Assembly: GCA_025356715.1 (NCBI GenBank)
Contig: JANXRU010000146.1
Span: forward strand, 53,558-117,557
Direction: 5' to 3'
Source of the DNA: Bacteroidota bacterium
GTDB taxonomy: Bacteria > Bacteroidota > Bacteroidia > B-17B0 > B-17BO
Length of the DNA: 64,000 nt
Shown: positions 39,678 to 61,937 of the stretch, piece after piece
Position numbering within the stretch: the stretch's first letter is position 1
Layout of the letters: each line of letters starts with the position of its first letter
Translations under genes and position numbers: made by a program
Notes under the pieces: generated by a model
Database searches by the model: none
The model's input: the letters and a program-made list of their open reading frames with translations, nothing else
What the model was told of the DNA's origin: nothing

Positions 39678-40988
39678 TTGTTAAATGAGCAGCAGAAGAA
39701 TTTATTTTTTATAAATTGCCAAACATTGGAGGATAAACTAACAGATACTATTAAAGTAAGCAGTATAAAAATTAATTTTTATGCACTGTTAAGTTACGTT
39801 TATTTTTTTTTCAATTCTGTGGGATTACCTTTTGGTTTGTTGTATACCAATCTGCTAACTCCTGTTTTTTATATTTGGCTTTGGAAACACCACCAACGAT
39901 TTATTTTAATCGGATTATTCGTGTTTCTTATTCCTTACGATATTATACATGTTATTTTGGGGGTGGAGTGGAAATCGTTTTTAAAATCCAATCTACTATT
40001 TATAAGTACCTATATTTTTGTTTTTTCTTTTGTACACTTCATAAACCATTATCAATACTTAGGAAAATTATTTAAACATATTCTTATTGCTAATTTCATA
40101 TTTTCATTAATAGCATGCGTTGTTTTTTTTACTCCATACAGAGAAGTTTTATGGTATATAAAAAAATTTACATCCTCTGTAGATAGCCTTCCAAGATTAG
40201 CTTTATTAACTTATGAAGCCTCATATTACTCGTTACTTTTTATTCCAATTGCATTTTATTACATACTAAAAGTTTTATTAAACCAAAATCGAACAAATGG
40301 TTTCTATATCATGATTATGGTATTTGTTCCCATCATTTTATCTCTTTCAATTGGAGTTATTACAGCTTCATTCTTTGCATTTTCTTTGTTATTCTACATA
40401 AATCGAAATTCATTGCTTAAGAAGAAGAAATTTTTTTATACAATATTAGGTGGGGGTATATTATGCATTTTGGTATTATTCATTTTGTTGATTTTTTTTC
40501 CTGAAAATCCTGTTTTTGTTCGCATTGCGAATATCGTAACAGGGCAAGATACTTCGGCTAATGGGCGTACTATTGATTCATTTACGATGGCATTTAGAAT
40601 AGCCCATTTAAAAAGTCTGTTATTTGGAGCTGGTCTAGGGCAAATAAAAATTTTAGCACCAGATATAGTTAGTAAATATTATTATTATTGGGGGGAATTA
40701 GATGTAGTTAGAATACCTAACACTATTGCAGAAACACTTGTCATTTTTGGGTTCACAGGCTTGTTTCTTAGATTATTTATTATTTATTATTTATTTCTAA
40801 AAACAAAAGTGTTGACTAATTATTACCGTACTGCATTATTCATTTTTATTTTTTTATATCAATTTACGGGAAGTTATATTACCAATATTGTTGAATATGT
40901 TATTTGGGCTTTGGCATTTTCAAATGTATTTGAAGAATTCGATGTAAAAAAAGCAGCCAATTCTTTTTCTATCGGAATTGGTTTATGA
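39678..40988 (+). CDS. Wzy/O-antigen-ligase-like membrane protein
   Basis: 436 aa with about ten to eleven membrane segments and a large loop around residues 290-330 (FVRIANIVTGQDTSANGRT; LLFGAGLGQIKIL), the pattern of polysaccharide polymerases and O-antigen ligases. The start codon is TTG at 39678, as no in-frame ATG precedes the first membrane segment. It converges with the GT39-like gene, overlapping it by 20 bases. A second protein of this type is at 48670. Which is polymerase and which ligase cannot be told from sequence. Confidence 0.72.
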   Translation: MLNEQQKNLFFINCQTLEDKLTDTIKVSSIKINFYALLSYVYFFFNSVGLPFGLLYTNLLTPVFYIWLWKHHQRFILIGLFVFLIPYDIIHVILGVEWKSFLKSNLLFISTYIFVFSFVHFINHYQYLGKLFKHILIANFIFSLIACVVFFTPYREVLWYIKKFTSSVDSLPRLALLTYEASYYSLLFIPIAFYYILKVLLNQNRTNGFYIMIMVFVPIILSLSIGVITASFFAFSLLFYINRNSLLKKKKFFYTILGGGILCILVLFILLIFFPENPVFVRIANIVTGQDTSANGRTIDSFTMAFRIAHLKSLLFGAGLGQIKILAPDIVSKYYYYWGELDVVRIPNTIAETLVIFGFTGLFLRLFIIYYLFLKTKVLTNYYRTALFIFIFLYQFTGSYITNIVEYVIWALAFSNVFEEFDVKKAANSFSIGIGL

Positions 40989-42774
40989 TAATTTGATTGA
41001 TAAATAAATTTCGATCTTCTTTTGTTTTTGGGTTAGTATAATCATTCATCATTTCAATTTTAACAATATTGTTCATCGTATGCACATCAAAATGAAAATC
41101 AATTGAGGATGTTATATCTGTTGCTGTGTAATGCCCTATTATAGTATCATTAAGTAATACTTTAATTCTAGGAAACTCTTTTTCAGAAGATGTACCTCGT
41201 GAAATAATTTTCATGCTATACTTCCCTTTTTTGAGGTGAATGGGTAACGATTGGATTTGCCCTCCCCATAAAGTTATAACTTGTTCATTATTTACAGTAG
41301 ATAATAATGATTTGTCGAACTGAATATTTGTAAGTCCACTTCTGCGTTCATACAATTGAGCCCAAGCATCAAAAAAATTTAAGCTTTTTACAAGCACATA
41401 ATTAGCATAAATATTTTTTAATTCATCCTCTCTAACCTTTGGGGTACTGTGCGCTCCTACCAACCAAAATCCTTTTTTTGTTTTTATTTTATTTACTAAG
41501 TCAATTATGTTTTCTGAATCTTTTATTAACAAGTTTTTTGAAATCCCGTTTTCGTAAGCATAATATGAAAAATGCCATGAACTTTTAGGTGAAATAATGG
41601 CATAACCATCTTCATAATGTTTAGCTATGTATTCTGTTAATTCTCTGAACTGAGTTTTTCTAATTGTGGTGTAATATTTTTTGACAAATAGAATATCTGT
41701 TAACGATACAACTAAAAAAAGCACTAAAATTAAATTCCTTATTAAAGTGTTTTTTATAAATGAAACACCGGAAGACAACATTAACAATATTGCAGGAAGA
41801 ACAATGATAGTGTACCGACTTGCTAGCATTGGAACGACAAATACTGATCTTAAAAATGGAATAAAATATGAAATAAAAATCCATAAGGAAAGAATAACAA
41901 ATCCAAATATATCAGATGAAATTTTAACAATGTTTCTTTCATGTATGAGGTTAATAAAGTAAGAAATTAAGAACAGTAAAAGAAACGGTTTAAGTAAACC
42001 TGTGTCACCAAAATATTCAAAAAAATAATCAGAAGCAAAACTGGTAGATACAGAAGTAACCCAATAGGTATTGATATTGGCAACTTCTAATAAAAAGGGA
42101 ATCCAAATTGAATAAACAATACCAATAACTAAAAAACATATTGCGAATGTTTTAAAAAATTTAGGCTTATCATTTGTGTAGGCAAACCCCAAAATAAATA
42201 CAATAAAACACTGTGAAACTAAAATAAACAAACAAAAATAGTGTGTATATATCATGGCCAAAACGAAACCAGAATACCAAACGGCATTTGTTGTGCTTAA
42301 ATTTTTAATCAACTTAATTAGAAATAAAAATGAAAGGCAAACAAATAGAAATGCTAACATGTAGCTTCTAGCTTCTTGAGAATAATAAATACAGAAGTAA
42401 TTAATTGAAGTAAAAAAAGCGGCTATAATTCCAACTCTTTTGTTATATAGTTCTCGCCCCAATAAATACATTACCCATATACATAATGTTCCTGCTACTG
42501 CAGATAATGAACGTGCAACTATTGCACTTGTACCGAAAACACTAAAAAGAATTCTTTCTAAAAAGTAGAAAAGCGGTGGGTGTTGGTCATGGTATTTAAG
42601 ATAATCAAATAGTTTTCCAAGAGGCATTTGTGGTGCAGATTCAATCATTGTGTGAATTTCATCAACCCATAAACTTTGAAAATCTAAATTGTACACTCTT
42701 AATATAAAACCAAGTAAAACCAAGCCAAAAAGAATAAATTCAGCTTTCTTAAGTTCTAATATGTTCCAATTCAT
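40969..42774 (-). CDS. GT39-like membrane glycosyltransferase, copy 1
   Basis: 601 aa from the ATG at 42772-42774; four codons upstream is a TTG. The first periplasmic loop has the family acidic pair in SLWVDEIHTMIESAP and the DQHPPLFYFL motif. About ten membrane segments precede a C-terminal periplasmic domain (from about residue 400) that ends in a beta-sandwich. ArnT/PMT-type enzymes transfer a sugar from a polyprenyl-phosphate donor to lipid A, protein or polymer. It is a tandem paralogue of the gene at 42844. Confidence 0.85.
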   Translation of the reverse strand: MNWNILELKKAEFILFGLVLLGFILRVYNLDFQSLWVDEIHTMIESAPQMPLGKLFDYLKYHDQHPPLFYFLERILFSVFGTSAIVARSLSAVAGTLCIWVMYLLGRELYNKRVGIIAAFFTSINYFCIYYSQEARSYMLAFLFVCLSFLFLIKLIKNLSTTNAVWYSGFVLAMIYTHYFCLFILVSQCFIVFILGFAYTNDKPKFFKTFAICFLVIGIVYSIWIPFLLEVANINTYWVTSVSTSFASDYFFEYFGDTGLLKPFLLLFLISYFINLIHERNIVKISSDIFGFVILSLWIFISYFIPFLRSVFVVPMLASRYTIIVLPAILLMLSSGVSFIKNTLIRNLILVLFLVVSLTDILFVKKYYTTIRKTQFRELTEYIAKHYEDGYAIISPKSSWHFSYYAYENGISKNLLIKDSENIIDLVNKIKTKKGFWLVGAHSTPKVREDELKNIYANYVLVKSLNFFDAWAQLYERRSGLTNIQFDKSLLSTVNNEQVITLWGGQIQSLPIHLKKGKYSMKIISRGTSSEKEFPRIKVLLNDTIIGHYTATDITSSIDFHFDVHTMNNIVKIEMMNDYTNPKTKEDRNLFINQIIINQFR

Positions 42775-42843
42775 TTTATACTTCAATGGTCTAATCTATT
42801 TTTTTTCTTATACGATTACTTTAATGAAAAAAAATTAATCCTA

Positions 42844-44634
42844 TTATTTAATTTCTGAAACAAGTATCTTAGTGATAAAGACATTCCTATCTTGTTTACT
42901 ATTCTTGTCACTAAAATCGTTCATCATCTCAAGGCTTAAATTAGCTATTCCTTCATGTGATTCATAAAGGAAGTTAGTTTGAGACATATTTTCAAAAGCC
43001 GCATATTCACCAATAATATTTCCATTAATAGTGACTTTTACACGTGGTTGTTCCCCTGATGCTGGTGTGCCTCTTGAAATAATGGTTATGTTATATTTTC
43101 CTTTTTTTAAGCTAATTGGATGCGCATTTATTTTACCGTTCCACAATGCAAGTAAAGTATCCTTGTCTATTTTAAAATAAAGGGATTTATCGAAAGTAAT
43201 TTCTTTTGATTCTCTTGCTAAAGGTAGATATAGTTGAACCCATGCATCATAAAAATCTTTAGTTTCTGATAACGAATAATTAATTGAAAGCAATTTTACT
43301 CTATCATCAGTAATTTTAGGAGTATTATGAGTTCCAACAATCCAAAAACCAATTCCATTTTTAATTTGAGCAAGTGAGTCTAAAAGTTGATCTGTATCTT
43401 CTCCAAGTATATATTTTTCTATCCCATGTTTTTTAGCATAGTATTGAAAATGCCATGTGGTATTGGGATTCACAATTGGGTATTTGTTACTTCTGTGGTT
43501 AGCTATATATGAAGTTAATTCCCTGAATTGAGTTTTACTGATTTGAGAATAATACTTTTTTACAAAAACTAAATCAATTAAGGAAGTAAGAACAAACATT
43601 ATTAGTAAACCATTTTTTACATGATTGTTCGGAATAAGTGTTATGCCAAAAGAAAGCATTAGTATAATGGCAGGTAAAACAACTATCGTGTAACGAGGAG
43701 ATAGCATTGGTACCATCAAAATAGATCTGAGATATGGAATTAGGTAAGTGATAAATATCCATAAAGAGAAAACGATAAAGCCAAATATGATTGGAGAATT
43801 TTTAATTTCTCTTTTATCTCCAATTAAGAAAACGCAATAGATAATTAAGAACAACAATAAAAAAGGTTTTAATAATTCAGTATTCCCAAAGTAATCGAAG
43901 AAATAGGCTTCTGCAAAATTTGTTGGAATAGTTGTGATCCAAAATGATTTGATATTAGACATTTCAAAAATAAATGGGAGCCAAAGTGCATATACCAAAC
44001 CTATAACAATTGCGCTTATTGAATATATCTTCAAGAATTTCGGTTTATTATCCGATATGTATAACCAATAAAAAAGAGCAATAGAAGTTTGTGAAACAAA
44101 TACGAAAATTCCATAATAATGAGTATACATCATTAACAAAGTAAATAGGCAATAAACAACTGTGTTTTTAACAGATATATTTTTTTGTAGTTTAAGAAAA
44201 TAGAGAAATGAAAGGCTTGTGAAAAGAAACAAGACAATGTAGCCTCGAGCTTCCTGAGAATAGAGTATATTAAAATAGTTTACACAAGTTAACAAAGCCG
44301 CTATAATCCCTAATTTTTTATTATACAATTCTTTCCCCAACAAAAATAATACCCAAACACTTATTGTACCTGATAAAGCGGAAATTGAACGTGCAACAAA
44401 TTCAGAATAGCCAAATAGAATAAATGCCAATCTTACAATAAAAAAAAATATCGGAGGATGTTGATCGCAACATCTTAAATAATTAAATAATTCTGAAAAG
44501 GATAAACTTGGATCTGCTTCAATCATTGTATGCAATTCATCTACCCATAAGCTTTGAAAATTAAGTTGATAAAATCGCAGGAAAAATGAAACAACGAGGA
44601 CTAACGAAAGAAGTATTTTTTCTGATTTGCTCAT
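42844..44634 (-). CDS. GT39-like membrane glycosyltransferase, copy 2
   Basis: 596 aa. It matches copy 1 along the whole length: SLWVDELHTMIEADP, CDQHPPIFFFIV, YSQEARGYI, FWIVGTHNTPKI and a final MMNDFSDKNSKQDRN. It also has multiple membrane segments and a periplasmic C-terminus. The gene begins 5 bases after the GT2 gene at 44640, which looks like a polyprenyl-phosphate sugar synthase; together they could make and use a lipid-linked sugar donor. Confidence 0.85.
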   Translation of the reverse strand: MSKSEKILLSLVLVVSFFLRFYQLNFQSLWVDELHTMIEADPSLSFSELFNYLRCCDQHPPIFFFIVRLAFILFGYSEFVARSISALSGTISVWVLFLLGKELYNKKLGIIAALLTCVNYFNILYSQEARGYIVLFLFTSLSFLYFLKLQKNISVKNTVVYCLFTLLMMYTHYYGIFVFVSQTSIALFYWLYISDNKPKFLKIYSISAIVIGLVYALWLPFIFEMSNIKSFWITTIPTNFAEAYFFDYFGNTELLKPFLLLFLIIYCVFLIGDKREIKNSPIIFGFIVFSLWIFITYLIPYLRSILMVPMLSPRYTIVVLPAIILMLSFGITLIPNNHVKNGLLIMFVLTSLIDLVFVKKYYSQISKTQFRELTSYIANHRSNKYPIVNPNTTWHFQYYAKKHGIEKYILGEDTDQLLDSLAQIKNGIGFWIVGTHNTPKITDDRVKLLSINYSLSETKDFYDAWVQLYLPLARESKEITFDKSLYFKIDKDTLLALWNGKINAHPISLKKGKYNITIISRGTPASGEQPRVKVTINGNIIGEYAAFENMSQTNFLYESHEGIANLSLEMMNDFSDKNSKQDRNVFITKILVSEIK

Positions 44635-49948: not shown

Positions 49949-50656
49949 ATGCAAGCAAATATTAACAAAATAATTCCGCTCGAAAATAGGGTAAAAACAG
50001 AGTTGCCAAATTCATTTTATGGAATTATTAAACTCTCTTCTATAGAACCTTTGGATAAACTTGAAAATTTCATTCTAAAAAGACTCTTTGATATTGTGTT
50101 CTCAATTATCATTCTCATATTGTTTTTATCGTGGTTAATTCCACTGTTTGCTCTATTAATCAAGCTTACTTCAAAAGGTCCGATTTTTTTTATTCAAAAA
50201 AGAACTGGTATGCACAATAAAACTTTTTTATGTATTAAGCTTCGCTCTATGTATGTAAATGAATATTCGAACACCAGTCATGCTATAAAAAATGACTCCC
50301 GCGTAACAATGGTTGGATACTATTTACGGAAATTTAGTTTGGATGAATTACCTCAATTCGTAAATGTGCTTTTGGGACAAATGTCGGTTGTTGGTCCACG
50401 ACCATTAATGTTAAAACATACCGAGGAATATGCTCAACAGTTGGATAGTTTTATGCTTCGTCATAGAGTAAAACCTGGCATTACGGGATTATCGCAGGTG
50501 AAAGGATATAGAGGTGAAATGTTTGAAAAACGAATGCTTAAAAACAGGTTAAAGTTGGATTTATTCTATCTCAGTAATTGGAATATTTTTTTGGATATAG
50601 AAATTGTTTTTGAAAGCATAAAATTAATGTTGTTTGGTGATGACAACGCATATTAA
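49949..50656 (+). CDS. Initiating sugar-phosphate transferase
   Basis: 235 aa. The bacterial sugar transferase domain starts with KRLFDIVFSIIILILFL, which includes the single membrane helix, and carries KLRSMYVNEY, LRKFSLDELPQFVNVLLG, SVVGPRP and RHRVKPGITGLSQVKG. It transfers a sugar phosphate from UDP-sugar to undecaprenyl phosphate, the first step in making the repeat unit. The short form lacks the N-terminal membrane domain of WcaJ-type enzymes. It overlaps the next gene by 17 bases. Confidence 0.93.
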   Translation: MQANINKIIPLENRVKTELPNSFYGIIKLSSIEPLDKLENFILKRLFDIVFSIIILILFLSWLIPLFALLIKLTSKGPIFFIQKRTGMHNKTFLCIKLRSMYVNEYSNTSHAIKNDSRVTMVGYYLRKFSLDELPQFVNVLLGQMSVVGPRPLMLKHTEEYAQQLDSFMLRHRVKPGITGLSQVKGYRGEMFEKRMLKNRLKLDLFYLSNWNIFLDIEIVFESIKLMLFGDDNAY

Positions 50657-52190
50657 TCAACCAAAAATATTTCTGTATTTAATTCCAACCTGCCTATTAG
50701 GAATCTATTTTATAATGTTATCATCAACAAAACCAATTGGTGATTTTGGCAATTATTATTATGCGTCAAAATTTCTTTTAAACGGAAACTGGGGGCAATG
50801 GATTTATGAACCGTCAAAATTTAATTTAGCCGTGTATGAATTGGGGCAACGTGATTTTTTTCTTAACTATACTCCGGTTCCTCCTTTCAGTGCTATTCTC
50901 TATTTGCCTTTTAGTATTATGCAGGTGTCTATTTCAAAATTGATATGGGATATACTTACTTTTTCTTTTTTTATTTTTAGCGTTATAAAGCTACAAACTC
51001 ATCTAAAATTCAACCACCGTATTTTACTTTTTATACCATTAATAATTTATACTCCCTTACGAAATGGATTATACGAAGGGCAATCTTATTTACTATTATT
51101 TTCATTACTCTCATTAGGCTTTATTTTTTATCAAACGGATAAATTATTGCTAGCTGCGTTATTTTGGAGTTTATGTATTCATCTAAAAATAAGCCCTGCA
51201 TTTGTGTTATTTTTTTTACTTTTTCAAAAAGATATAAAAGCTATTATTTACTTAATAATATGCACCTTAAGTTTCATTATAATATCCATCCCTTTTATAG
51301 GATTTTCTGTTTGGCAACATTATCTATTAGATATTATTCCCCGGCTGTTTAATGGAGAAATTAATAATACCTACGCTATCAGCTATCAAAGTATGCAGGT
51401 ATTATTAAAAACTATGTTAGTGCCAGATTTAATGCATAATCATTTTGCTTGGTTTAATAACCCAACTATGTATAAAAAGCTATCTATTTTTTTTATCACA
51501 CTAATTTATGGAATTACTATTTTGTGTTCACTTACCAAATCAAGTAAGGAAAGTAAATTTAGTTTATGGTTAATAACCTCATTACTTGTGAGTGGATATG
51601 GCAATAGTTTTAGTATGCTATTATTATTAATTCCAAGCCTTTTATTGTATCATCAATTAATCTTAAAACCTACATTATCTATCTTGTTTCTATTTTGTTT
51701 AATCATCACCATAAATCTTCCTATTCATTTTTTTGCCAACGATAATATGTTGACTCATTTTCCAAGACTATATGGCTTAATCATTTTATTCATATTAAGC
51801 ATTAGTTTAATAGAAATCCGATTTAAGTATTATTATCTTATACCCTTATTAGTAATTTATTTTATACCATATAATAATACAGTTTATGCTCAAAATTATT
51901 TATTTGATAAGGAAGAAGCATTGCTCATTTACGATTTTAAAACAAATGAGCGCTCTATAACGATTCATTTCTTTGATAATAATGGACCTCAGTATAAAAC
52001 TATTTTTATTCCGCATAAATTTGAAGGAAGAAAAGTGACTTACGATACAACATATTTTCATCACAATGATGAAAATATTATAAAAAGTTGTTCAATAAAT
52101 GATAGTATTTATATTTACCTTTCTGATAAAAACAGAGGAGTGGGGTTTTATACAATTAGATTTAATCATTTAAAAAAATATTCCTATTAA
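50640..52190 (+). CDS. GT87-like membrane glycosyltransferase
   Basis: 516 aa from the ATG at 50640; the two preceding codons are TTG and GTG. It has at least ten membrane segments and a first-loop acidic pattern (PIGDFGNYYYASKFLLNGNW) typical of GT87/DUF2029 polyprenol-dependent enzymes, with LRNGLYEGQSYLLLFSLLSL further on. A soluble C-terminal beta-rich part of about 90 residues faces the periplasm. It would use a polyprenyl-phosphate donor in the periplasm. Fold assignment is good, role open. Confidence 0.75.
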   Translation: MTTHINQPKIFLYLIPTCLLGIYFIMLSSTKPIGDFGNYYYASKFLLNGNWGQWIYEPSKFNLAVYELGQRDFFLNYTPVPPFSAILYLPFSIMQVSISKLIWDILTFSFFIFSVIKLQTHLKFNHRILLFIPLIIYTPLRNGLYEGQSYLLLFSLLSLGFIFYQTDKLLLAALFWSLCIHLKISPAFVLFFLLFQKDIKAIIYLIICTLSFIIISIPFIGFSVWQHYLLDIIPRLFNGEINNTYAISYQSMQVLLKTMLVPDLMHNHFAWFNNPTMYKKLSIFFITLIYGITILCSLTKSSKESKFSLWLITSLLVSGYGNSFSMLLLLIPSLLLYHQLILKPTLSILFLFCLIITINLPIHFFANDNMLTHFPRLYGLIILFILSISLIEIRFKYYYLIPLLVIYFIPYNNTVYAQNYLFDKEEALLIYDFKTNERSITIHFFDNNGPQYKTIFIPHKFEGRKVTYDTTYFHHNDENIIKSCSINDSIYIYLSDKNRGVGFYTIRFNHLKKYSY

Positions 52191-52253: not shown

Positions 52254-53441
52254 TTGGCTCTGATTAAACCCAAAAATCTTGATCGATTATATATTATAGC
52301 ATCGCATTCGGCAAGCCAGTTTTTGCCAAGCGCAGCTAATATGCTTACCTCAGTAATTGTAATTAGAATGCTAATACCTGAGTGGTGGGGGCAGATAACA
52401 GTTTTACAATTATATATGTATTTGGCAACCCAATTTTGCGCATGGGGGAATAAAGATTTTTTAATGAAACGATTTAGTGAAAATCCATCACAAATTCCTA
52501 CGTTATGGATGGACTCTTTTAGTGCTCGTTTTTTTCTTCTTGTGCCTGCGATTATAGGTACTGTATTTATTACTCAGGATTTGACTTCTGTTTTCTATCT
52601 TATCATTTGGCTTCTTTTAAGATTCTTACTTCAATCATTTGATGCTCCAATTGTTTTTAATAGAAATTTTGTAATGGTAATTATTTCGGAAGCTATTGCA
52701 ATAATTATTACTGCCACAGGGCTCTTAATATATCGTAAATATATTTCTTATAATGATGTACTTCTAATTTTAACAATTGGATATTTTATAAAAACTTGTA
52801 TTCAAACTTATTATTACAAAGAATATTTTAAGTATCCATTTTCTTTTATCCCCAATATTAAAAAGCTCAAAATATTGCTTCCATTTATGATGTTAGGTTT
52901 TGCGGGAGTGATGCAACAAAAATCGGATATGATATGTGTGGTATGGTTATGTAATAAAATTGAAGTGGCACAATATCAAGTATTCAGCGGACTATTGATT
53001 TTTACGCAAATGATTCCAGGATTAGTGGCCGGACCATATATAAAAAACCTGTATCGTATTTCATCCACATCGTACAAAAAAATTCAGCTTCAGTTTTCCA
53101 TTTTGGGGATTCTTATATCCACTATATTATCAATACTCACATATTTCGTAATTACATATATTTACCATTTTAGTTTACCAATAACTATTTATTTGCTTGG
53201 TTTTTTATACGGATTGTTTACTTATTTTTATATGTTACAAATCTATTTACTTTTTAAAGATCAAAAGCAAAATCAGGTAATGATAATTAGTATCATATCC
53301 ATCGTTATCAATTTTATTTTATGCTTTATTTTTATACCTTTTTGGGGAATACAGGGCGCTGTAATAGCAAATGTAATTACACAAATTGTTTTATTTGCTG
53401 CATACAAATATTATTGGAAGCAAACGCAAGCGATTAAGTAA
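52254..53441 (+). CDS. Wzx-like oligosaccharide flippase
   Basis: 395 aa with about twelve membrane segments, as in the MOP/PST superfamily (SASQFLPSAANMLTSVIVIRM; MLGFAGVMQQKSDMICVVWL; GIQGAVIANVITQIVLFAAY). It would flip the lipid-linked repeat unit across the inner membrane. The start codon is TTG at 52254: a stop lies two codons upstream and the next in-frame ATG is within the first membrane segment. It ends just before the lipoprotein gene at 53443. Confidence 0.87.
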   Translation: MALIKPKNLDRLYIIASHSASQFLPSAANMLTSVIVIRMLIPEWWGQITVLQLYMYLATQFCAWGNKDFLMKRFSENPSQIPTLWMDSFSARFFLLVPAIIGTVFITQDLTSVFYLIIWLLLRFLLQSFDAPIVFNRNFVMVIISEAIAIIITATGLLIYRKYISYNDVLLILTIGYFIKTCIQTYYYKEYFKYPFSFIPNIKKLKILLPFMMLGFAGVMQQKSDMICVVWLCNKIEVAQYQVFSGLLIFTQMIPGLVAGPYIKNLYRISSTSYKKIQLQFSILGILISTILSILTYFVITYIYHFSLPITIYLLGFLYGLFTYFYMLQIYLLFKDQKQNQVMIISIISIVINFILCFIFIPFWGIQGAVIANVITQIVLFAAYKYYWKQTQAIK

Positions 53442-54822: not shown

Positions 54823-56319
54823 ATGAAGGTGCTTCTATTTAACCCGCGCAGTGCTTATAATAAATTTAGAATCCCAAATTCTGTTTTACAGATTGCCGCG
54901 TCAATTGAAGGTTTATGTGAGTGGGTGATTGTAGATGGAAATAGGGAAACAGACCCTTATGCTAAAATTAAAGAAAACTTAGATACAGGCGAATTTGGAT
55001 ACGTTGGATTTACAGTGATGCCAGGCCCACAGTTAAAACAAGCCATTCCTTTTGCAAAACTCATCAGACAAAATTATTCATCAATAAAAATAATTTGGGG
55101 TGGATATTTTGCCTCCAACCACCATAAATCTGTTTTAGAATCTGGGTATGTTGATTATGTAATTAACGGTCCGGGTGATTATGCATTTCCCGCATTAATA
55201 AATGCTATCAAAAATGATTTGCCAATATTAGGAATTGATAATTTGATTTACATTGTTGAAGGAAAAATAATAAAAACTAAAAAGGCTGACCTATTGGATT
55301 ATGACAGTCTTAAACCACTTCCTTATGATAAATTAAATCAATTTTATACTACCGGAAGCTATTTAGGGAAAACATATTTAGGTAATAAAACACTTGCCTA
55401 TCATAGTAGTTTTGGTTGTCCGTTTACATGTTCGTTTTGCGCTGTAGTTCCAATTTATGAAGCACGCTGGAAAGGAAAATCAGCTCAAGGGATTTATACT
55501 GATGTGAAATATATTAAAGATAAATGGGGGGCTGATTCAATAGAGTTTCATGATAATAATTTTTTTGTATCCGAAAAACGTGTCGTTGAATTTTCTCATT
55601 TGATAAAAAAGGAAAATATGATTTGGTGGGGAGAGGGAAGAATTGATACCATTGATAAATACAAAGATGAAACTCTTGCATTGATGAGAGAGGCAGGTTG
55701 TAAAATGATATTTTTTGGGGCTGAAACTGGCAATGATGAAGTACTGAAAAAAATGGATAAGGGTGGAACTCAAACTGGTGAACAAATAGCTGCATTTGCA
55801 GCACGAATGAAAAAATTTGATATTATTCCTGAATATTCTTTTGTGCTTGGACTACCAGGAGAATCACCCGAAAAAGTAATGCAACAAATTGATGAAGATA
55901 TTTCTTTCATAAAAAGAATAAAAGAAATTAATCCCGATACTGAAATTATCATTTACGTTTACAGCCCTGTTCCTACTGAAGGTTCGGAGATGTATAATGA
56001 TGTATTAAAAAGTGGCTTTAGGTTTCCAACATCTTTAGAAGATTGGTTACATACCGAATGGGAAAATTTTGATTTGAGAAAAAATCCTCTCACACCATGG
56101 TTAACTTCAGAAATGATTGATAAAATAAAAAATTTTGAAGTTGTTTTAAATGCCTTTTACCCTACAGTATCTGATATAAAAATGAAGCCCTACCAAAGAA
56201 AAATTATTCAACATATTTCTTCATTCAGATACCGAAACAGTTTTTATAAATCTCCGTTCGAACTAAAAATACTTCAAAAAATGTGGAGGTATAGACAACC
56301 CGAAATACAAGGGTTTTAA
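54823..56319 (+). CDS. B12-binding-type radical SAM protein 1
   Basis: 498 aa. A Rossmann-like cobalamin-binding region covers about 1-140 (FGYVGFTVMPGPQLKQAIPF; IWGGYFASNHHKSVLESG). The usual cobalamin-binding DxHxxG His is not evident. The radical SAM motif is CPFTCSFC in SSFGCPFTCSFCAVVP near residue 200, followed by WWGEGRIDTIDKY and FFGAETGNDEVLKKMDKGG. About 130 residues beyond the core form a helical tail. Such enzymes methylate unactivated carbons or do other radical chemistry. It is the first gene of the six-gene set. Confidence 0.88.
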   Translation: MKVLLFNPRSAYNKFRIPNSVLQIAASIEGLCEWVIVDGNRETDPYAKIKENLDTGEFGYVGFTVMPGPQLKQAIPFAKLIRQNYSSIKIIWGGYFASNHHKSVLESGYVDYVINGPGDYAFPALINAIKNDLPILGIDNLIYIVEGKIIKTKKADLLDYDSLKPLPYDKLNQFYTTGSYLGKTYLGNKTLAYHSSFGCPFTCSFCAVVPIYEARWKGKSAQGIYTDVKYIKDKWGADSIEFHDNNFFVSEKRVVEFSHLIKKENMIWWGEGRIDTIDKYKDETLALMREAGCKMIFFGAETGNDEVLKKMDKGGTQTGEQIAAFAARMKKFDIIPEYSFVLGLPGESPEKVMQQIDEDISFIKRIKEINPDTEIIIYVYSPVPTEGSEMYNDVLKSGFRFPTSLEDWLHTEWENFDLRKNPLTPWLTSEMIDKIKNFEVVLNAFYPTVSDIKMKPYQRKIIQHISSFRYRNSFYKSPFELKILQKMWRYRQPEIQGF

Positions 56320-56348
56320 TTTTATCTCTTTTTTAAAATAATAAATAA

Positions 56349-57020
56349 ATGAGTAAGGGTTTAAAATATATTGTAGAAAAAACGTGTCGACCAATTTTAA
56401 AATGGTATTTAAACTCAGACAGGCAATACAATTATAAGGACATAAAATTAACTGTTAAGAAAGGAGTTTTTCATCCGGCCTTTTTTTTTAGTACAAAATT
56501 TTTATTGAATGAACTTACTCAATATGATTTGGATGGTAAAACATTTTTAGAACTCGGTGCGGGAAGCGGATTGATTTCTATTTACGCTGCTAAACGAGGA
56601 GCGGTTGTGGCTGCAAGTGATATTAATGAATCAGCAATTACTGGACTCAATGAAAATTTTAAATTCAATATTCAGCATTCAACATTCGTTATTTTAAAAA
56701 GCGATTTGTTTGATTCAATTCCTCAACAAACGTTTGATTACATTATTATCAACCCTCCTTATTATCCCAAGCATCCTAAAAATGATATTGAAAGAGCGTG
56801 GTATTGCGGAGAAAATTTTGAGTATTTTGAAAAAATGTTTTCACAATTAAAAAATTACTTGCAACCAAACTCAATAGTTTTGATATCCTTATCTGAGGAT
56901 TGTAACTTAAATAGAATTAGTAAAATTGCGCTTAAAAATAACTATCGTTTTGAGGTGGTTAAAAAACAACGTATCATGTGGGAGTTAAATTTTATTTATC
57001 AAATAAAGCACAGCGATTAA
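56349..57020 (+). CDS. Class I methyltransferase with NPPY motif
   Basis: 223 aa. SAM-binding motif I is FLELGAGSGLISIYAAKRGA and motif II ASDINESAITGLNENF. The NPPY motif (DYIIINPPYYPKHPKND) is the catalytic loop of the PrmC/N5-glutamine and adenine-N6 methyltransferase group. The N-terminal KKGVFHPAFFFSTKFL resembles the substrate-recognition part of HemK-like enzymes. It lies 29 bases after radical SAM 1 and 2 bases before the nucleotidyltransferase gene. Its target is unknown, though a glutamine or nitrogen atom is suggested by the NPPY loop. Confidence 0.83.
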   Translation: MSKGLKYIVEKTCRPILKWYLNSDRQYNYKDIKLTVKKGVFHPAFFFSTKFLLNELTQYDLDGKTFLELGAGSGLISIYAAKRGAVVAASDINESAITGLNENFKFNIQHSTFVILKSDLFDSIPQQTFDYIIINPPYYPKHPKNDIERAWYCGENFEYFEKMFSQLKNYLQPNSIVLISLSEDCNLNRISKIALKNNYRFEVVKKQRIMWELNFIYQIKHSD

Positions 57021-57022
57021 TC

Positions 57023-57982
57023 ATGCAGAATAGTGAACGATATGATAATAGAAAAGTAGAGATAGATGAATTAAGTTCATCAATACTTAAAGTATTGCTT
57101 TATTTTAATATTTTTAGTCATCCACTTACTGCAAGTGAAATACAAGAGTTTAGTAAGGTTAATGCTAATGAAACAAATAAAATCAATGAAATATTAAACC
57201 AATTAGTTACCCAAAAATTGATTTATCAATTTGATTCGTTTTACTCTATAAGTAATAACAAAATACTTATCGAAAAGCGAATTCAAGGAAATAAATTAGC
57301 ACAAGTATATTTGAATAGAGCTATGTGGGTTTCTCGTTATATATCATGGTTTCCATTTGTTAAAAGCATCATGATTTCAGGATCCTTATCAAAAGGATAT
57401 ATGGATAAAGGATCGGATATTGATTATTTTATAATAACTCAAAATGGTCGTCTATGGATATGCAGAAGTATTTTGGCACTGCAACGAAAACTAATGATTA
57501 AACCACTTAAAAAATATTTTTGCATCAATTATTTCGTAAGCACTTCATCACTTGCTATTCCTGATCATAATTTATTTACTGCCACAGAAATAGCTTGTGT
57601 ATACCCCACATATGGTCAATCTTATTATACTCAATTACAAAATGAAAACACTTGGATAAAAGAGTTTTTACCAAATAAAAAAATGTATACCGAAAAAGTA
57701 AATAGCAGGACATACAGATTTAGTTTAAAAACTATTATAGAGAATGTTTTTAACGGTGATTGGGGTGAAAAACTAGATTCGATTTTATTTAAATTTATGT
57801 TAAAGAGGTGGAAAAAAAGATATGCAGATTTTGATGAAACCCAATTTGATTTAAATATTCGAACAAAAAAAAATGTATCAAAGCAACATGAAAAAGGACA
57901 TCAATTTGTTATTTTAGAAAAGTATACTCAACAGATAAATAATTATGAAGAAATGAATCAAGTGAAGTTAACTAATGATTGA
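57023..57982 (+). CDS. Winged-helix/nucleotidyltransferase-domain protein
   Basis: 319 aa from the ATG at 57023; an ATG at 56978 lies inside the previous gene. A winged-helix-like segment at residues 20-80 (KVLLYFNIFSHPLTASEIQE) precedes a nucleotidyltransferase core with GSLSKGYMDKGSDIDYFII at 120-138 (GS motif and the DxD metal pair). The C-terminal 150 residues are helical and basic. It overlaps the next gene by 8 bases. It could nucleotidylate a small molecule, lipid or protein; no substrate can be read. Confidence 0.78.
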   Translation: MQNSERYDNRKVEIDELSSSILKVLLYFNIFSHPLTASEIQEFSKVNANETNKINEILNQLVTQKLIYQFDSFYSISNNKILIEKRIQGNKLAQVYLNRAMWVSRYISWFPFVKSIMISGSLSKGYMDKGSDIDYFIITQNGRLWICRSILALQRKLMIKPLKKYFCINYFVSTSSLAIPDHNLFTATEIACVYPTYGQSYYTQLQNENTWIKEFLPNKKMYTEKVNSRTYRFSLKTIIENVFNGDWGEKLDSILFKFMLKRWKKRYADFDETQFDLNIRTKKNVSKQHEKGHQFVILEKYTQQINNYEEMNQVKLTND

Positions 57983-59402
57983 TATTTTACTTACACACTC
58001 CTATTTTCTTCGGTTTGACCCTAAACAATGGAAAGCTCAGCAACCCTTTCCACCGCTTGCTACTCTTTATGCTGCTGCGGTTTTACGTTCTGCTAATATC
58101 GATTTAGCTTTTCAAGATATGATGTTTGCTGAATCGGCAAGTGAAATAAAGAACGTTATTGAAAAATATCAACCAAAATATTTTATCATTTATGATGATG
58201 GGTTTAATTATCTCACAAAAATGTGCTTAACCAATATGCGTGAAGCAGCATTTGAGATGATTAATATTGCAAAAAAAAATGGATGTATAGTTATTATTTC
58301 AAGCTCTGATGCGACCGACAATAGTGAAGAATATCTGAAGAAAGGTGCAGATTTTATTATTGTGGGTGAAGGAGAGCATACATTATTACAACTCATTCAA
58401 TCACTAAAAAACAACTCTTCATTTCAAGCAATTGAAGGGTTAAGATTTATACAAAATAATCAACTCATTCAAACCAATAAAAGAGAAAATAGTAAAGAGT
58501 TGGATTCTATTCCATTTCCTGCTTGGGATTTGGTTGATATGAACGAGTATAAAAATAGATGGGTGAAAAGTTCTGGATATTTTTCGTTGAATATGAGCAC
58601 CACACGCGGTTGTCCGTTTAAATGCAATTGGTGTGCAAAACCTATTTATGGAAATAGATATCACTCACGTTCACCTGAAAATGTTGTTGCAGAAATAAAG
58701 ATGCTTAAAGAAAAATATAGCGTTAATTATATTTGGTTTTGTGATGATATTTTTGGATTAAAACCAAATTGGGTAAATCATTTTGCGGATTGTATTGAAC
58801 GGAACGAATTGTCTTTTAAATTTAAAATTCAATCACGTGTTGATTTACTTTTAGAAGAAGATAATATTGAAGCATTGGCTCGATCAGGATGTAATGAAAT
58901 TTGGGTAGGTGCTGAAAGTGGTTCACAAAAAATTTTAGATGCTATGGATAAAGGCACTAAAGTAGAACAGATATATAAGGCAACAAATTTGATGAAAGCG
59001 AAAGGAATTAAGCCTTGCTTTTTTTTACAATTTGGGTACTTAAATGAAACAAAAAATGACATTGATAAAACATTAAATATGGTATTTGAATTGATGCCTC
59101 ATGATATAGGAATTTCAGTTTCATACCCTTTGCCAGGCACGAAATTTTATGACACAGTAAAGTCACAATTAAGTGAAAAAACCAATTGGACAGATAGTGA
59201 TGAATTGGCTATGATGTTTAATGCAACCTATCCGGCTATGTTTTATAAAAAACTACAACGCTATGTTCATCATGAATTTAGAAAACGAAAAGCATTTGAG
59301 GCATTCAAAAAACTAAACGACCTAAAAAAAATATTCTCATTACTATATCGTATTCCACAAACATATTTGTCCAAAATAGCTATAAAAAAATATGTTGCAT
59401 AA
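57975..59402 (+). CDS. B12-binding-type radical SAM protein 2
   Basis: 475 aa. N-terminal B12-binding-like domain (ILLTHSYFLRFDPKQW; GADFIIVGEGEHTLLQLI) and radical SAM motif CPFKCNWC in TTRGCPFKCNWCAKPIYGNRY. Later blocks are VGAESGSQKILDAMDKG and VSYPLPGTKFYDTV. It is a paralogue of protein 3 at 60193 (shared THxYFL start, GAESGSQK and the YPxxGTxxY motif). It overlaps the NTase gene by 8 bases and the next methyltransferase by 11. Confidence 0.88.
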   Translation: MIDILLTHSYFLRFDPKQWKAQQPFPPLATLYAAAVLRSANIDLAFQDMMFAESASEIKNVIEKYQPKYFIIYDDGFNYLTKMCLTNMREAAFEMINIAKKNGCIVIISSSDATDNSEEYLKKGADFIIVGEGEHTLLQLIQSLKNNSSFQAIEGLRFIQNNQLIQTNKRENSKELDSIPFPAWDLVDMNEYKNRWVKSSGYFSLNMSTTRGCPFKCNWCAKPIYGNRYHSRSPENVVAEIKMLKEKYSVNYIWFCDDIFGLKPNWVNHFADCIERNELSFKFKIQSRVDLLLEEDNIEALARSGCNEIWVGAESGSQKILDAMDKGTKVEQIYKATNLMKAKGIKPCFFLQFGYLNETKNDIDKTLNMVFELMPHDIGISVSYPLPGTKFYDTVKSQLSEKTNWTDSDELAMMFNATYPAMFYKKLQRYVHHEFRKRKAFEAFKKLNDLKKIFSLLYRIPQTYLSKIAIKKYVA

Positions 59403-60192
59403 AACTCCTTTTGATTCTGTTGCTTCAACATACGATGAGGATTTTACACATACCCCAATTGGAAAGCTTCAACGAGAACGAACACATTATTTCACCCAAC
59501 TATATTTACCGAAAAATAATTCACTAAAAATACTTGAATTGAACTGTGGAACTGGTGAAGATGCAATATGGATAGCGCAACAAGGGCATCAAATTTTGGC
59601 CACAGATAGTGCTGAAAATATGGTAGATGTTGCACGTTCAAAAAACAATAAATTAAATCTTAATATACAATTTGAAGTTTCTTCTTTCAATGAGTTAAAC
59701 AACAAATTTTTAGGGCAACAATTTGATATTATCTTTTCTAATTTTGGAGGATTGAATTGTGTAGATGAAATTGAACTCGAAAAGTTAAATGCAGATTTAG
59801 CCAAGTTATTAAAACCTAATGGCAAACTAATAATGGTTTTGTTGGGTAAATATTGTTGGATAGAAAAACTTTATTTTTTATTGAAGGGCGATATTGAAAA
59901 CTCTAGGAGAAGGCTGGTTTCAACAAGTGCTAACTTAGGAAATGGAGCTATGCAAAAAACTTACTGCTACTCAGTAAAAAAAATTGAACACATTTTTACT
60001 TCATTCAAATTAGAAAACCATAAACCAATTGGAATTATTATTCCTCCATCTTATTTTAATGCTTTATTGGAAAGAGTAAAATTCACCATACCTTTAATCA
60101 AACTATTTGAAAAACTATTTTCTCGGTTTTCTATTTTATCAAATTATGGCGATCATACTTTTATTATCATGACGAATAGATCCAAAAAATAA
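59392..60192 (+). CDS. Class I SAM-dependent methyltransferase
   Basis: 266 aa. Motif I is KILELNCGTGEDAIWIAQQG, motif II ATDSAENMVDVAR and a later block NFGGLNCVDEIEL. The C-terminal half is hydrophobic and helical (YFNALLERVKFTIPLIKLFE), ending in SNYGDHTFIIM. It resembles methyltransferases found with radical SAM genes in lipid or secondary metabolite clusters; the acceptor is unknown. It overlaps the preceding gene by 11 bases and abuts the following one exactly. Confidence 0.83.
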   Translation: MLHKTPFDSVASTYDEDFTHTPIGKLQRERTHYFTQLYLPKNNSLKILELNCGTGEDAIWIAQQGHQILATDSAENMVDVARSKNNKLNLNIQFEVSSFNELNNKFLGQQFDIIFSNFGGLNCVDEIELEKLNADLAKLLKPNGKLIMVLLGKYCWIEKLYFLLKGDIENSRRRLVSTSANLGNGAMQKTYCYSVKKIEHIFTSFKLENHKPIGIIIPPSYFNALLERVKFTIPLIKLFEKLFSRFSILSNYGDHTFIIMTNRSKK

Positions 60193-61572
60193 ATGAAAAT
60201 AATTTTAACACATGGATATTTTTTAGAGGACGACCCGAAAGAAAAGGTAATCATGAGACCTTATGTACCTTTAGGTATTTTATATATTTCTGCTTGGCTC
60301 GAAAAATTTGGATATAACAACGATGTGTTTGATGCTACCTTCTCAACATTTGAAAAACAAAAAGAATTTATTCTTTCTCAAAAGCCTGATATAATAGCAA
60401 TTTACACCAATTTAATGACGAAGTTAAATGTGCTGAGAACCATTCAATTTATTAGAAGTAGCAGTGAACTAAAACAAACTAAAATAGTTTTGGGTGGTCC
60501 GGAAGTTAGAAATCATGTAGATAAATTTTTGGAATCTGGAGCAGACTTTATTGTGTTGGGTGAAGGGGAAGAAACTATGTTGGATTTGGTGAAGTATTTG
60601 GATAATCAATCAGAAAAAAAAATTGAAGAAATTGAAGGAATTGTATTTAAAAGTAATGAGCATAAAACACAGTATACTGCCGAAAGAGTTAAGTTGAAAA
60701 ACTTAGACGAATTGCCATTGCCAAATCGTACAAAAGTTAATTTACAATTGTATTTTGATGCTTGGAAAACCAAACATGGCACAAGTGCAATTTCTATTAA
60801 TACCATGCGAGGTTGCCCATATTCTTGCAAGTGGTGCAGTCGTGCTGTATACGGACAAAGTTATAGAAGGAGAAGTGCAAAACATGTTGTTGATGAAATA
60901 GAATGGATAACAAATAATTATCAAGTTGATACGGTTTGGTTTGTAGATGATGTATTTACAGTTAGTCATAAATGGTTAACAGAATTTAAAGAAGAGTTGA
61001 CAAGTAGAAATATTTCAATACCTTATGAATGTATAACCCGTGCGGATAGAATGAATGAAGATGTAATTAAGGATTTGAAGGAAAGTGGTTGTTTTAGAGT
61101 TTGGATTGGAGCAGAAAGTGGTTCTCAAAAAGTAATTGATTTGATGGAAAGACGTGTAGATGTGAATCAGGTTAGAGATATGATACAACTTTCTCAAAAA
61201 TATGGAGTACAAGCCGGAACCTTTATTATGGTTGGTTATCCGGGCGAAACAGAAAAAGATATTTTTGAAACAGTTAGGCATTTAAAAATTTCAAATCCAG
61301 ATTATTTTACCATTACAGTTGCTTATCCAATTAAAGGAACTCCATTGTATCAAGAAGTAGAAAATTTATTTGTTGAAGATTTGCCTTGGGAAAAATCAAC
61401 CGATAGAGATATAGATTTTAAAAGAACTTATTCAAGAAAATATTATGATTATGCGGTGCGAATGATTGTGAATGAAGTGAATGCATTTAAAGCCAATAAA
61501 AACTCTTTCAGTAAATATAAAATGAAAGCAAAATCCCTTTTTGCAAGGGGTGGAATGATAATATACAAATAA
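60193..61572 (+). CDS. B12-binding-type radical SAM protein 3
   Basis: 459 aa. The N-terminal B12-binding-like domain reads IILTHGYFLEDDPKE, IVLGGPEVRNHVDKFLESG and GADFIVLGEGEETMLDLV. The cluster motif is CPYSCKWC in MRGCPYSCKWCSRAVYGQSY. The core continues with IGAESGSQKVIDLMERR and VAYPIKGTPLYQEV. It starts right at the end of the methyltransferase gene with no spacer. It closes the six-gene set; an MmcQ/YjbR gene follows after 8 bases and may be on the same transcript. Confidence 0.88.
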   Translation: MKIILTHGYFLEDDPKEKVIMRPYVPLGILYISAWLEKFGYNNDVFDATFSTFEKQKEFILSQKPDIIAIYTNLMTKLNVLRTIQFIRSSSELKQTKIVLGGPEVRNHVDKFLESGADFIVLGEGEETMLDLVKYLDNQSEKKIEEIEGIVFKSNEHKTQYTAERVKLKNLDELPLPNRTKVNLQLYFDAWKTKHGTSAISINTMRGCPYSCKWCSRAVYGQSYRRRSAKHVVDEIEWITNNYQVDTVWFVDDVFTVSHKWLTEFKEELTSRNISIPYECITRADRMNEDVIKDLKESGCFRVWIGAESGSQKVIDLMERRVDVNQVRDMIQLSQKYGVQAGTFIMVGYPGETEKDIFETVRHLKISNPDYFTITVAYPIKGTPLYQEVENLFVEDLPWEKSTDRDIDFKRTYSRKYYDYAVRMIVNEVNAFKANKNSFSKYKMKAKSLFARGGMIIYK

Positions 61573-61580
61573 TTGAATTT

Positions 61581-61937
61581 ATGAATATCGAACTCATTCG
61601 TGAATATTGTTTAAGTAAAAAAGCAGTAGAAGAAACATTTCCTTTTGGAGAAGACACCTTGGTTTTTAAAGTAATGGGGAAAATGTTTGCGCTTACCTCA
61701 TTAAGCGATCCCGATCATTGTAATTTAAAATGCAACCCTGATAAAGCTATTGAACTTCGTAATGAATATGATGCTGTAAAACCGGGCTATCACATGAATA
61801 AGCAACATTGGAATACCATTCAATACAATGCTGACCTCCCCGATAAAGAAATAATAAAACTCATCGATCACTCTTATGAAATTGTGGTGCAGGGATTAAC
61901 TAAAAAAGCGCAGTTGGAGTTGAGTAAAATGAAATAA
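61581..61937 (+). CDS. MmcQ/YjbR family protein
   Basis: 118 aa, typical length. KAVEETFPFGEDTLVFKVMGKMFALT, LKCNPDKAIELRNEY and KPGYHMNKQHWNTI are the family blocks of this CyaY-like/double-wing fold. Members are annotated as DNA-binding but their role is not settled. It follows the radical SAM set by 8 bases but is a common stand-alone gene, so it may only be a neighbour. Confidence 0.9.
   Translation: MNIELIREYCLSKKAVEETFPFGEDTLVFKVMGKMFALTSLSDPDHCNLKCNPDKAIELRNEYDAVKPGYHMNKQHWNTIQYNADLPDKEIIKLIDHSYEIVVQGLTKKAQLELSKMK

Follow-up and report, generated by a model that had tools for sequence, protein, structure and literature searches.

What do three cobalamin (B12)-type radical S-adenosylmethionine (SAM) proteins, two methyltransferases and a protein with a nucleotidyltransferase fold accomplish together, next to the genes of a polysaccharide? 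This question is raised by a compact run of six genes, here called g1 to g6, in a 64,000-nucleotide stretch of a Bacteroidota bacterium (assembly GCA_025356715.1, contig JANXRU010000146.1, positions 53,558 to 117,557), the whole of which is referred to as the window. Here, we report that the genes g3, g4 and g5 form, with near certainty, a conserved core unit, that g6 and the pair g1-g2 are optional additions to it, and that the whole is a widespread and unnamed tailoring cassette. No named pathway was found to match the six-gene content, as the original prediction made from this sequence had stated, and no described pathway matching the cluster was found in the literature of PubMed Central, outside whose coverage most subscription papers fall.

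The distribution of g3 provides the frame for this conclusion. Among 3032 candidates searched, 2304 relatives of g3 were found at E≤0.001, and a scan of named genomes gave at least 588 pattern matches and 375 confirmed relatives, the best 80 of which define the loci compared here. According to their record titles these loci belong to Bacteroidota, including Flavobacteriales, Chitinophagales, Saprospiraceae and Cyclobacteriaceae, and also to Ignavibacteriales and a Kapaibacterium, and named strains, Kordia periserrulae DSM 25731 and Chryseolinea sp. H1M3-3 among them, are carriers of the cassette. Open reading frames (ORFs) were called mechanically and grouped by BLAST, and many loci are cut by contig ends. 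In these groups g3 was accompanied by g4 in 75 of the 80 loci, by g5 in 63, by g6 in 46, by g2 in 26 and by g1 in 25, and the core of g3, g4 and g5 was found together in 61. Where at least 9 kb was available on both sides (44 loci), family clusters gave 42 occurrences of g4, 39 of g5, 32 of g6 and 20 each of g1 and g2 (23 for g1 by the looser BLAST labels). The gene following g3 was g4 in 70 of the 76 loci with at least 1.5 kb downstream; stricter family clustering gave 69 adjacent pairs, 35 of which overlap by 8 or 4 bases. Among the six exceptions, g4 lay elsewhere within the locus in two and was matched elsewhere in the genome in three (two of these partial). All six genes were present in one fetched stretch in 11 of the 80 loci, and in the order of the window in eight. 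The proposal of one fixed set of six genes is thereby reduced to the core, and the conserved gene order for which a search had been proposed in Bacteroidota is nearly constant for g3-g4 and, in these loci, uncommon for the full run.

Because the 80 loci had been picked by their similarity to g3, the test was repeated on an even sample of 247 genomes of the phylum to which Fulvivirga imtechensis, the source of one of the loci, belongs. Matches to g3 occurred in 22 of these genomes and were strong (E≤3e-29) in 19, and the 19 genomes with g4 (E≤1e-60) were identical to them. Three genomes had been set aside before this comparison, G026, matched in three short fragments of which two contain stops (best E 3e-18), and G120 and G131, where the match is a fusion to a GT4-type glycosyltransferase (E 2e-16 and 8e-18), and none of the three had g4 at E≤1e-60. 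The odds of such an overlap by coincidence, 1/C(247,19) = 8.6e-29 with kinship ignored, are only a rough guide since the genomes are related to each other; the pairing in 19 of 19 genomes and in 70 of 76 loci rules out a chance co-location of g3 and g4. The gene g1 was found in 11 genomes and a true g6, judged by score and place, in three (G001, which is F. imtechensis, G081 and G092), all within the 19 that have the core. Hits to g6 at E≤1e-60 in 20 genomes include cross-hits at g4 positions, and the hit in G129 (E 2.5e-65, 220 bits), outside the 19, is presumably another radical SAM protein. In the loci fetched from 18 of the 19 genomes, g4 was always within about 6 kb of g3 and adjoined it on the same strand in 14; these loci are not fully independent of the 80, since L081 and L016 are one region of one genome (100% matches). 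The gene g5 was present in 17, at only 28-30% identity in two, and in the eighteenth a methyltransferase was fused to g4. The nineteenth genome, that of F. imtechensis, had g3-g4-g5-g6 in this order. Of the two doubts that had been attached to the original prediction, that the genes rarely co-occur is contradicted by this near-perfect pairing of g3 and g4, and that each belongs to a separate housekeeping family was not supported either.

In the window, the six ORFs were found at 54823-61572, all on the plus strand and exact to the base as predicted: going from g1 to g6, successive genes are separated by 29 and then 2 bases, overlap by 8 and then 11, and finally abut (Table 1). For g3 the ORF finder gives an upstream GTG at 56978, and the ATG is at 57023. 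The spacing, together with the recurrence of the g3-g4 pair in other genomes, supports the reading of g1 to g6 as one unit. Between 54500 and 62100 the plus strand showed no terminator-like site in a consensus scan, and promoter-like counts, terminator-like counts and matches to TANNTTTG were all at chance expectation. The MmcQ/YjbR gene that begins 8 bases past g6 (61581-61937) had no match in the 80 loci and was therefore placed outside the unit. The unit extends further upstream in part of the clusters and then takes in the GT87 glycosyltransferase, the flippase-like protein and the CxxCH lipoprotein, here called m2, m1 and g0.

Table 1. Genes of the cassette and of its upstream extension, in window coordinates
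Gene	Product	Position	Strand	Remarks
g1	B12-binding radical SAM protein, 498 aa	54823..56319	+	optional module; Pfam PF04055 and PF02310
g2	class I methyltransferase with NPPY motif, 223 aa	56349..57020	+	optional module with g1; Pfam MTS 55 bits
g3	winged-helix and nucleotidyltransferase-fold protein, 319 aa	57023..57982	+	core
g4	BchE-like B12 radical SAM protein, 475 aa	57975..59402	+	core partner of g3
g5	class I SAM methyltransferase, 266 aa	59392..60192	+	core; Pfam Methyltransf_25 65.5 bits
g6	second BchE-like B12 radical SAM protein, 459 aa	60193..61572	+	optional; g4 paralogue
g0	lipoprotein-like protein with invariant CxxCH, 385 aa	53443..54600	+	in part of clusters
m1	polysaccharide flippase-like membrane protein	52254..53441	+	in part of clusters; Pfam Polysacc_synt 18.3 bits, below cut-off 28.2
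m2	GT87 glycosyltransferase	50634..52190	+	in part of clusters; Pfam GT87 73.9 bits, cut-off 25

The surroundings of the cassette point to glycans. Up to eight ORFs around g3 in 18 loci, with g1 to g6 and ORFs above 900 aa or below 120 aa left out, made up a neighbour set of 140; the control comprised 142 ORFs, taken from 18 stretches of nine of these genomes. The family Glycos_transf_1 (GT4-type) accounted for 17 of the 140 neighbours and for at most 2 of the 142 controls (Fisher p 2e-4), the bound reflecting that it was outside the best 25 of 247 control families, where the lowest listed count was 2. GT2 accounted for four neighbours. Upstream of the cluster in the window are a GT4-type gene, an O-antigen-ligase-type gene, a sugar transferase, the GT87 gene and the flippase-like gene, and the predicted link to polysaccharide genes is supported by these and by the GT4-type enrichment. 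Fusions are found as well: a GT4-type glycosyltransferase is joined to a g3-like winged-helix/nucleotidyltransferase domain in two loci (L099:9919-11925 and L100:8654-10624), and a g5-type methyltransferase to a weak GT29-like domain in L091 (20.5 bits, cut-off 23). The GT87 family was grouped by BLAST near g3 in 19 of the 80 loci, and g0 was so grouped in 18; in the 44 loci with long flanks the clustered counts were 14 for g0, 14 for m2 and 8 for m1 (12 each for m1 and m2 by the looser labels). The g0-type family has 518 relatives and no Pfam entry, and the middle part of g0 weakly resembles cytochrome c'-beta/P460. Four loci of Flavobacteriales type (L039, L048, L060 and L072) have a YceI-family protein, a DUF5777 beta-barrel protein and a small protein upstream of g3. 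The window also holds two adjacent and similar large membrane proteins of 605 and 596 aa on the minus strand (40969-44634), which by eye only are GT39-type-like.

The same neighbourhood could belong to a free small molecule that is made by the cassette, glycosylated and exported, the glycan locus supplying sugars or merely being nearby. Several B12 radical SAM enzymes together with methyltransferases are, as a matter of general knowledge, typical of tailoring-rich natural-product clusters, and the best plasmid matches of g1, in Streptomyces and Calothrix, sit in compact cassettes with tRNA-synthetase-like and LD-carboxypeptidase genes. However, no core of nonribosomal peptide synthetase, polyketide synthase, terpene or ribosomally synthesized and post-translationally modified peptide (RiPP) type appeared in the top 25 of the 158 neighbour families, a set outside which ORFs below 120 aa, and with them any RiPP precursors, fall. 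Mean column identities of 60% for g4, 60% for g6 and 69% for g1 in 21 to 24 chosen sequences, and of 52% for g3, were moreover judged high for a natural-product cluster. Because of the glycosyltransferase enrichment and the fusions we prefer a glycan, and regard the free natural product as possible but doubtful.

What the radical SAM proteins may contribute is indicated by their domains and relatives. The domains originally assigned to the six proteins are those found by Pfam: Radical_SAM in three, a class I methyltransferase in two and NTP_transf_2 in one. Judged by sequence, g1, g4 and g6 carry the signature of cobalamin-dependent radical SAM proteins, PF04055 with CxxxCxxC. The Radical_SAM scores are 55.9, 83.7 and 89.4 bits in the three proteins (cut-off 29.5), and the cysteines, described as intact from the start, are invariant in alignments of 23, 24 and 21 sequences of the g1, g4 and g6 families. 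The B12-binding-like N-termini claimed for all three exceed the Pfam cut-off of 32.1 in g1 (38.5 bits) and g6 (51.4 bits) and fall below it in g4 (22.8 bits). The predicted pair of paralogues proved to be g4 and g6, with 32% identity over 440 columns and a position as sister clades on one branch of the tree (100/99). The suggested comparison with known groups was run with few references, two BchE from two photosynthetic bacteria and eight others, and several branches were long, and therefore only the three clades of g1, g4 and g6 were relied on; each of the three is a single clade, and g4 and g6 are apart from BchE, which forms another branch (100/100). The g1 clade stands on the side of uncharacterised plasmid proteins of Streptomyces, Nocardia and Calothrix. 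The best matches of g1 in the plasmid collection have 26-27% identity, and Streptomyces and Calothrix plasmids share a cassette (L125:2886-8525 and L126:2913-8405) in which a g1-like B12 radical SAM protein is found with a MoaA-like radical SAM protein, a tRNA-synthetase-like protein, an LD-carboxypeptidase, a short-chain dehydrogenase/reductase and a hypothetical protein; parts of it are also on Nocardia and Streptomyces F12 plasmids.

None of g1 to g6 reached an NCBIfam cut-off among the best 25 families per protein. The models nearest to the radical SAM proteins were BchE, HpnJ, PhpK and the ladderane-type lipid B12 protein (144.3 bits for g6, cut-off 360), BchE being the best for g4 and g6 and HpnJ for g1. 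Membership was rejected for BchE (TIGR02026; 153.3 bits for g4, 171.3 for g6 and 97.3 for g1, cut-off 481.35), for HpnJ (TIGR03471; 110.1 for g1, 137.4 for g4 and 142.6 for g6, cut-off 577.6) and for MiaB/RimO (TIGR00089; 23.1 for g1, 39.1 for g4 and 47.3 for g6, cut-off 251), and likewise for PhpK and the other listed radical SAM families, all with scores below half of the cut-offs. As the nearest models include BchE, HpnJ and the ladderane type and also the P-methyltransferase PhpK, both methylation and rearrangement are possible for g4 and g6. These likenesses might instead suggest that a lipid of hopanoid, ladderane or polyprenol kind is remodelled by the radical SAM enzymes and glycosylated afterwards: HpnJ and the ladderane-type protein are, besides BchE, among the closest models (142.6 and 144.3 bits for g6), and GT87 members are known as polyprenyl-phosphate-sugar-dependent enzymes. 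Yet every score is far under its family cut-off, and the 25 commonest neighbour families include none for lipid synthesis, a search that did not extend to the rest of the genomes; a lipid substrate is accordingly unlikely.

The g3 protein, the partner of g4, scores 23.3 bits with NTP_transf_2 (cut-off 21, just exceeded), and its fold is kanamycin-nucleotidyltransferase-like with a MecI/MarR-like winged helix. It carries the GS and subsequent DxD by which nucleotidyltransferase folds are recognised: among 135 aligned sequences G120, D132 and D134 are invariant and S121 is near-invariant, and the divergent relatives in L097 and L098 have GG in place of GS. On the strand 167-173, where we take the third catalytic carboxylate to be expected, C167 and N169 are invariant and there is no conserved acid, the strand being assigned presumptively and without superposition. 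The suggested activation by nucleotidyl transfer is a possibility only: GS and DxD are retained, but that strand has the invariant Asn. Mean column identity is 40% in the wider set of 135. No sequence match was found at E≤10 for g3 as a single sequence against the PDB, and none in the plasmid collection. For the methyltransferases, the prediction of an NPPY enzyme (g2) and a second class I enzyme (g5) was borne out by Pfam and by the motif, which is read directly in the g2 sequence and suggests methylation on a planar nitrogen. The nearest NCBIfam models of g2 are PRK14968-type (117.5 bits, cut-off 162) and another generic methyltransferase model (70 bits, cut-off 87). In L093 a methyltransferase domain of g5 type is fused to g4.

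The winged helix of g3, and Foldseek first hits that include HalB and MNT proteins (E 0.01-0.05), would also be in keeping with a set that modifies RNA or protein, or with an immunity module in which g3 is a winged helix-turn-helix regulator or an MNT-type antitoxin. PADLOC offers little for a defence system, as g1 and g3 were matchless, g2 and g5 gave methyltransferase-type matches (mad2, 68 and 55 bits) and g4 and g6 gave weak matches to PDC-M51A (37 and 48 bits). Furthermore, no HEPN family was among the 25 commonest neighbour families and the single fixed partner of g3 is g4, all of which makes this explanation highly improbable.

We return to the glycan, and give an even chance to a reading in which the cassette tailors an envelope glycan or glycolipid, either in one of its building blocks or at the end of a chain. 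From the gene content we infer a substrate, an order of steps and a chemistry, be it C-methylation or ring rearrangement. The proteins g3, g4 and g5 would act on one carbohydrate-containing substrate, which g3 may bind or nucleotidylate; g4 would generate a substrate radical and then methylate an unactivated carbon or rearrange a ring, and g5 would methylate O or N. The paralogue g6 could repeat the g4-type step at a second site, and g1-g2 may contribute a further radical step and a methylation, on a planar nitrogen if the NPPY motif is a guide. Assembly and export of the product would fall to the variable neighbouring glycosyltransferases, the flippase-like protein and an O-antigen-ligase-type enzyme. 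Several observations weigh against this picture. The 18 fetched loci include four where g4 was not immediately beside g3, and the sixth exception to adjacency, the genome of L025, has g3 and g5 and no g4 at E≤1e-60; the glycosyltransferase fusions of L099 and L100 occur in genomes without g4; and g0 had no match among the 247 genomes, an empty answer that is uninformative according to the tool. Wzy_C (4 of 140), GT9 (4) and GT87 (3) were each not significantly above the control when taken alone, glycosyltransferases are also found in natural-product clusters, and no nucleotide-sugar dehydratase or epimerase family was among the 25 commonest of the 158 neighbour families, for which reason no sugar is pinpointed. 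By analogy, g3 might more specifically place a nucleotidyl tag on a glycan precursor, to be read by g4 for B12 radical chemistry on the sugar. Such a nucleotide handle, decidedly unlikely as it is, would account for the rarity with which g3 and g4 are found separately.

B12 radical SAM enzymes are mainly known from antibiotics, cofactors, hopanoids and RiPPs. Tailoring by them is known in kind, and what sets the present case apart is probably its setting, an envelope glycan, together with a dedicated nucleotidyltransferase-fold partner. A cassette present in 19 of 247 sampled genomes and enriched beside glycosyltransferases would point to a surface sugar chemistry of which the searches made here found no description, and the exact g3-g4 pairing offers a direct handle on a partner for the enzyme subclass of g4.

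Among known systems, BchE, the anaerobic Mg-protoporphyrin IX monomethyl ester cyclase, has the B12-binding and radical SAM architecture in common with g4 and g6; it differs in having its own clade, and no bacteriochlorophyll gene was recognised beside the cluster in the window. The kanamycin nucleotidyltransferase ANT(4') differs from g3, which has an extra N-terminal winged helix and, on the strand expected to bear the third carboxylate, the invariant Asn. TIGR04295, a model of B12 radical SAM proteins of oligosaccharide regions whose name presumably points to carbohydrate loci, gave 99 bits for g4 and 93 for g6, short of its cut-off of 400. HpnJ, the hopanoid cyclitol-ether enzyme, is alike as a B12 radical SAM enzyme on a lipid-borne sugar; it offers a precedent for the glycan reading, since its turn on the lipid that carries the sugar follows those of a glycosyltransferase and a deacetylase (PMC12583986). 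It differs in that no hopanoid gene was recognised beside the cluster in the window, a genome-wide search not having been made. OxsB, a B12 radical SAM enzyme by which a nucleotide has its sugar ring contracted and which works with a partner protein (PMC13142503), is likened to the nucleotide handle in acting on a nucleotide. The oxetanocin pair OxsB/OxsA resembles g4 and g3 in joining a B12 radical SAM enzyme to a partner protein, and the similarity of OxsB to the g4 profile is remote only (59.8 bits). The partners differ, OxsA being an HD phosphohydrolase and g3 a nucleotidyltransferase-fold protein.

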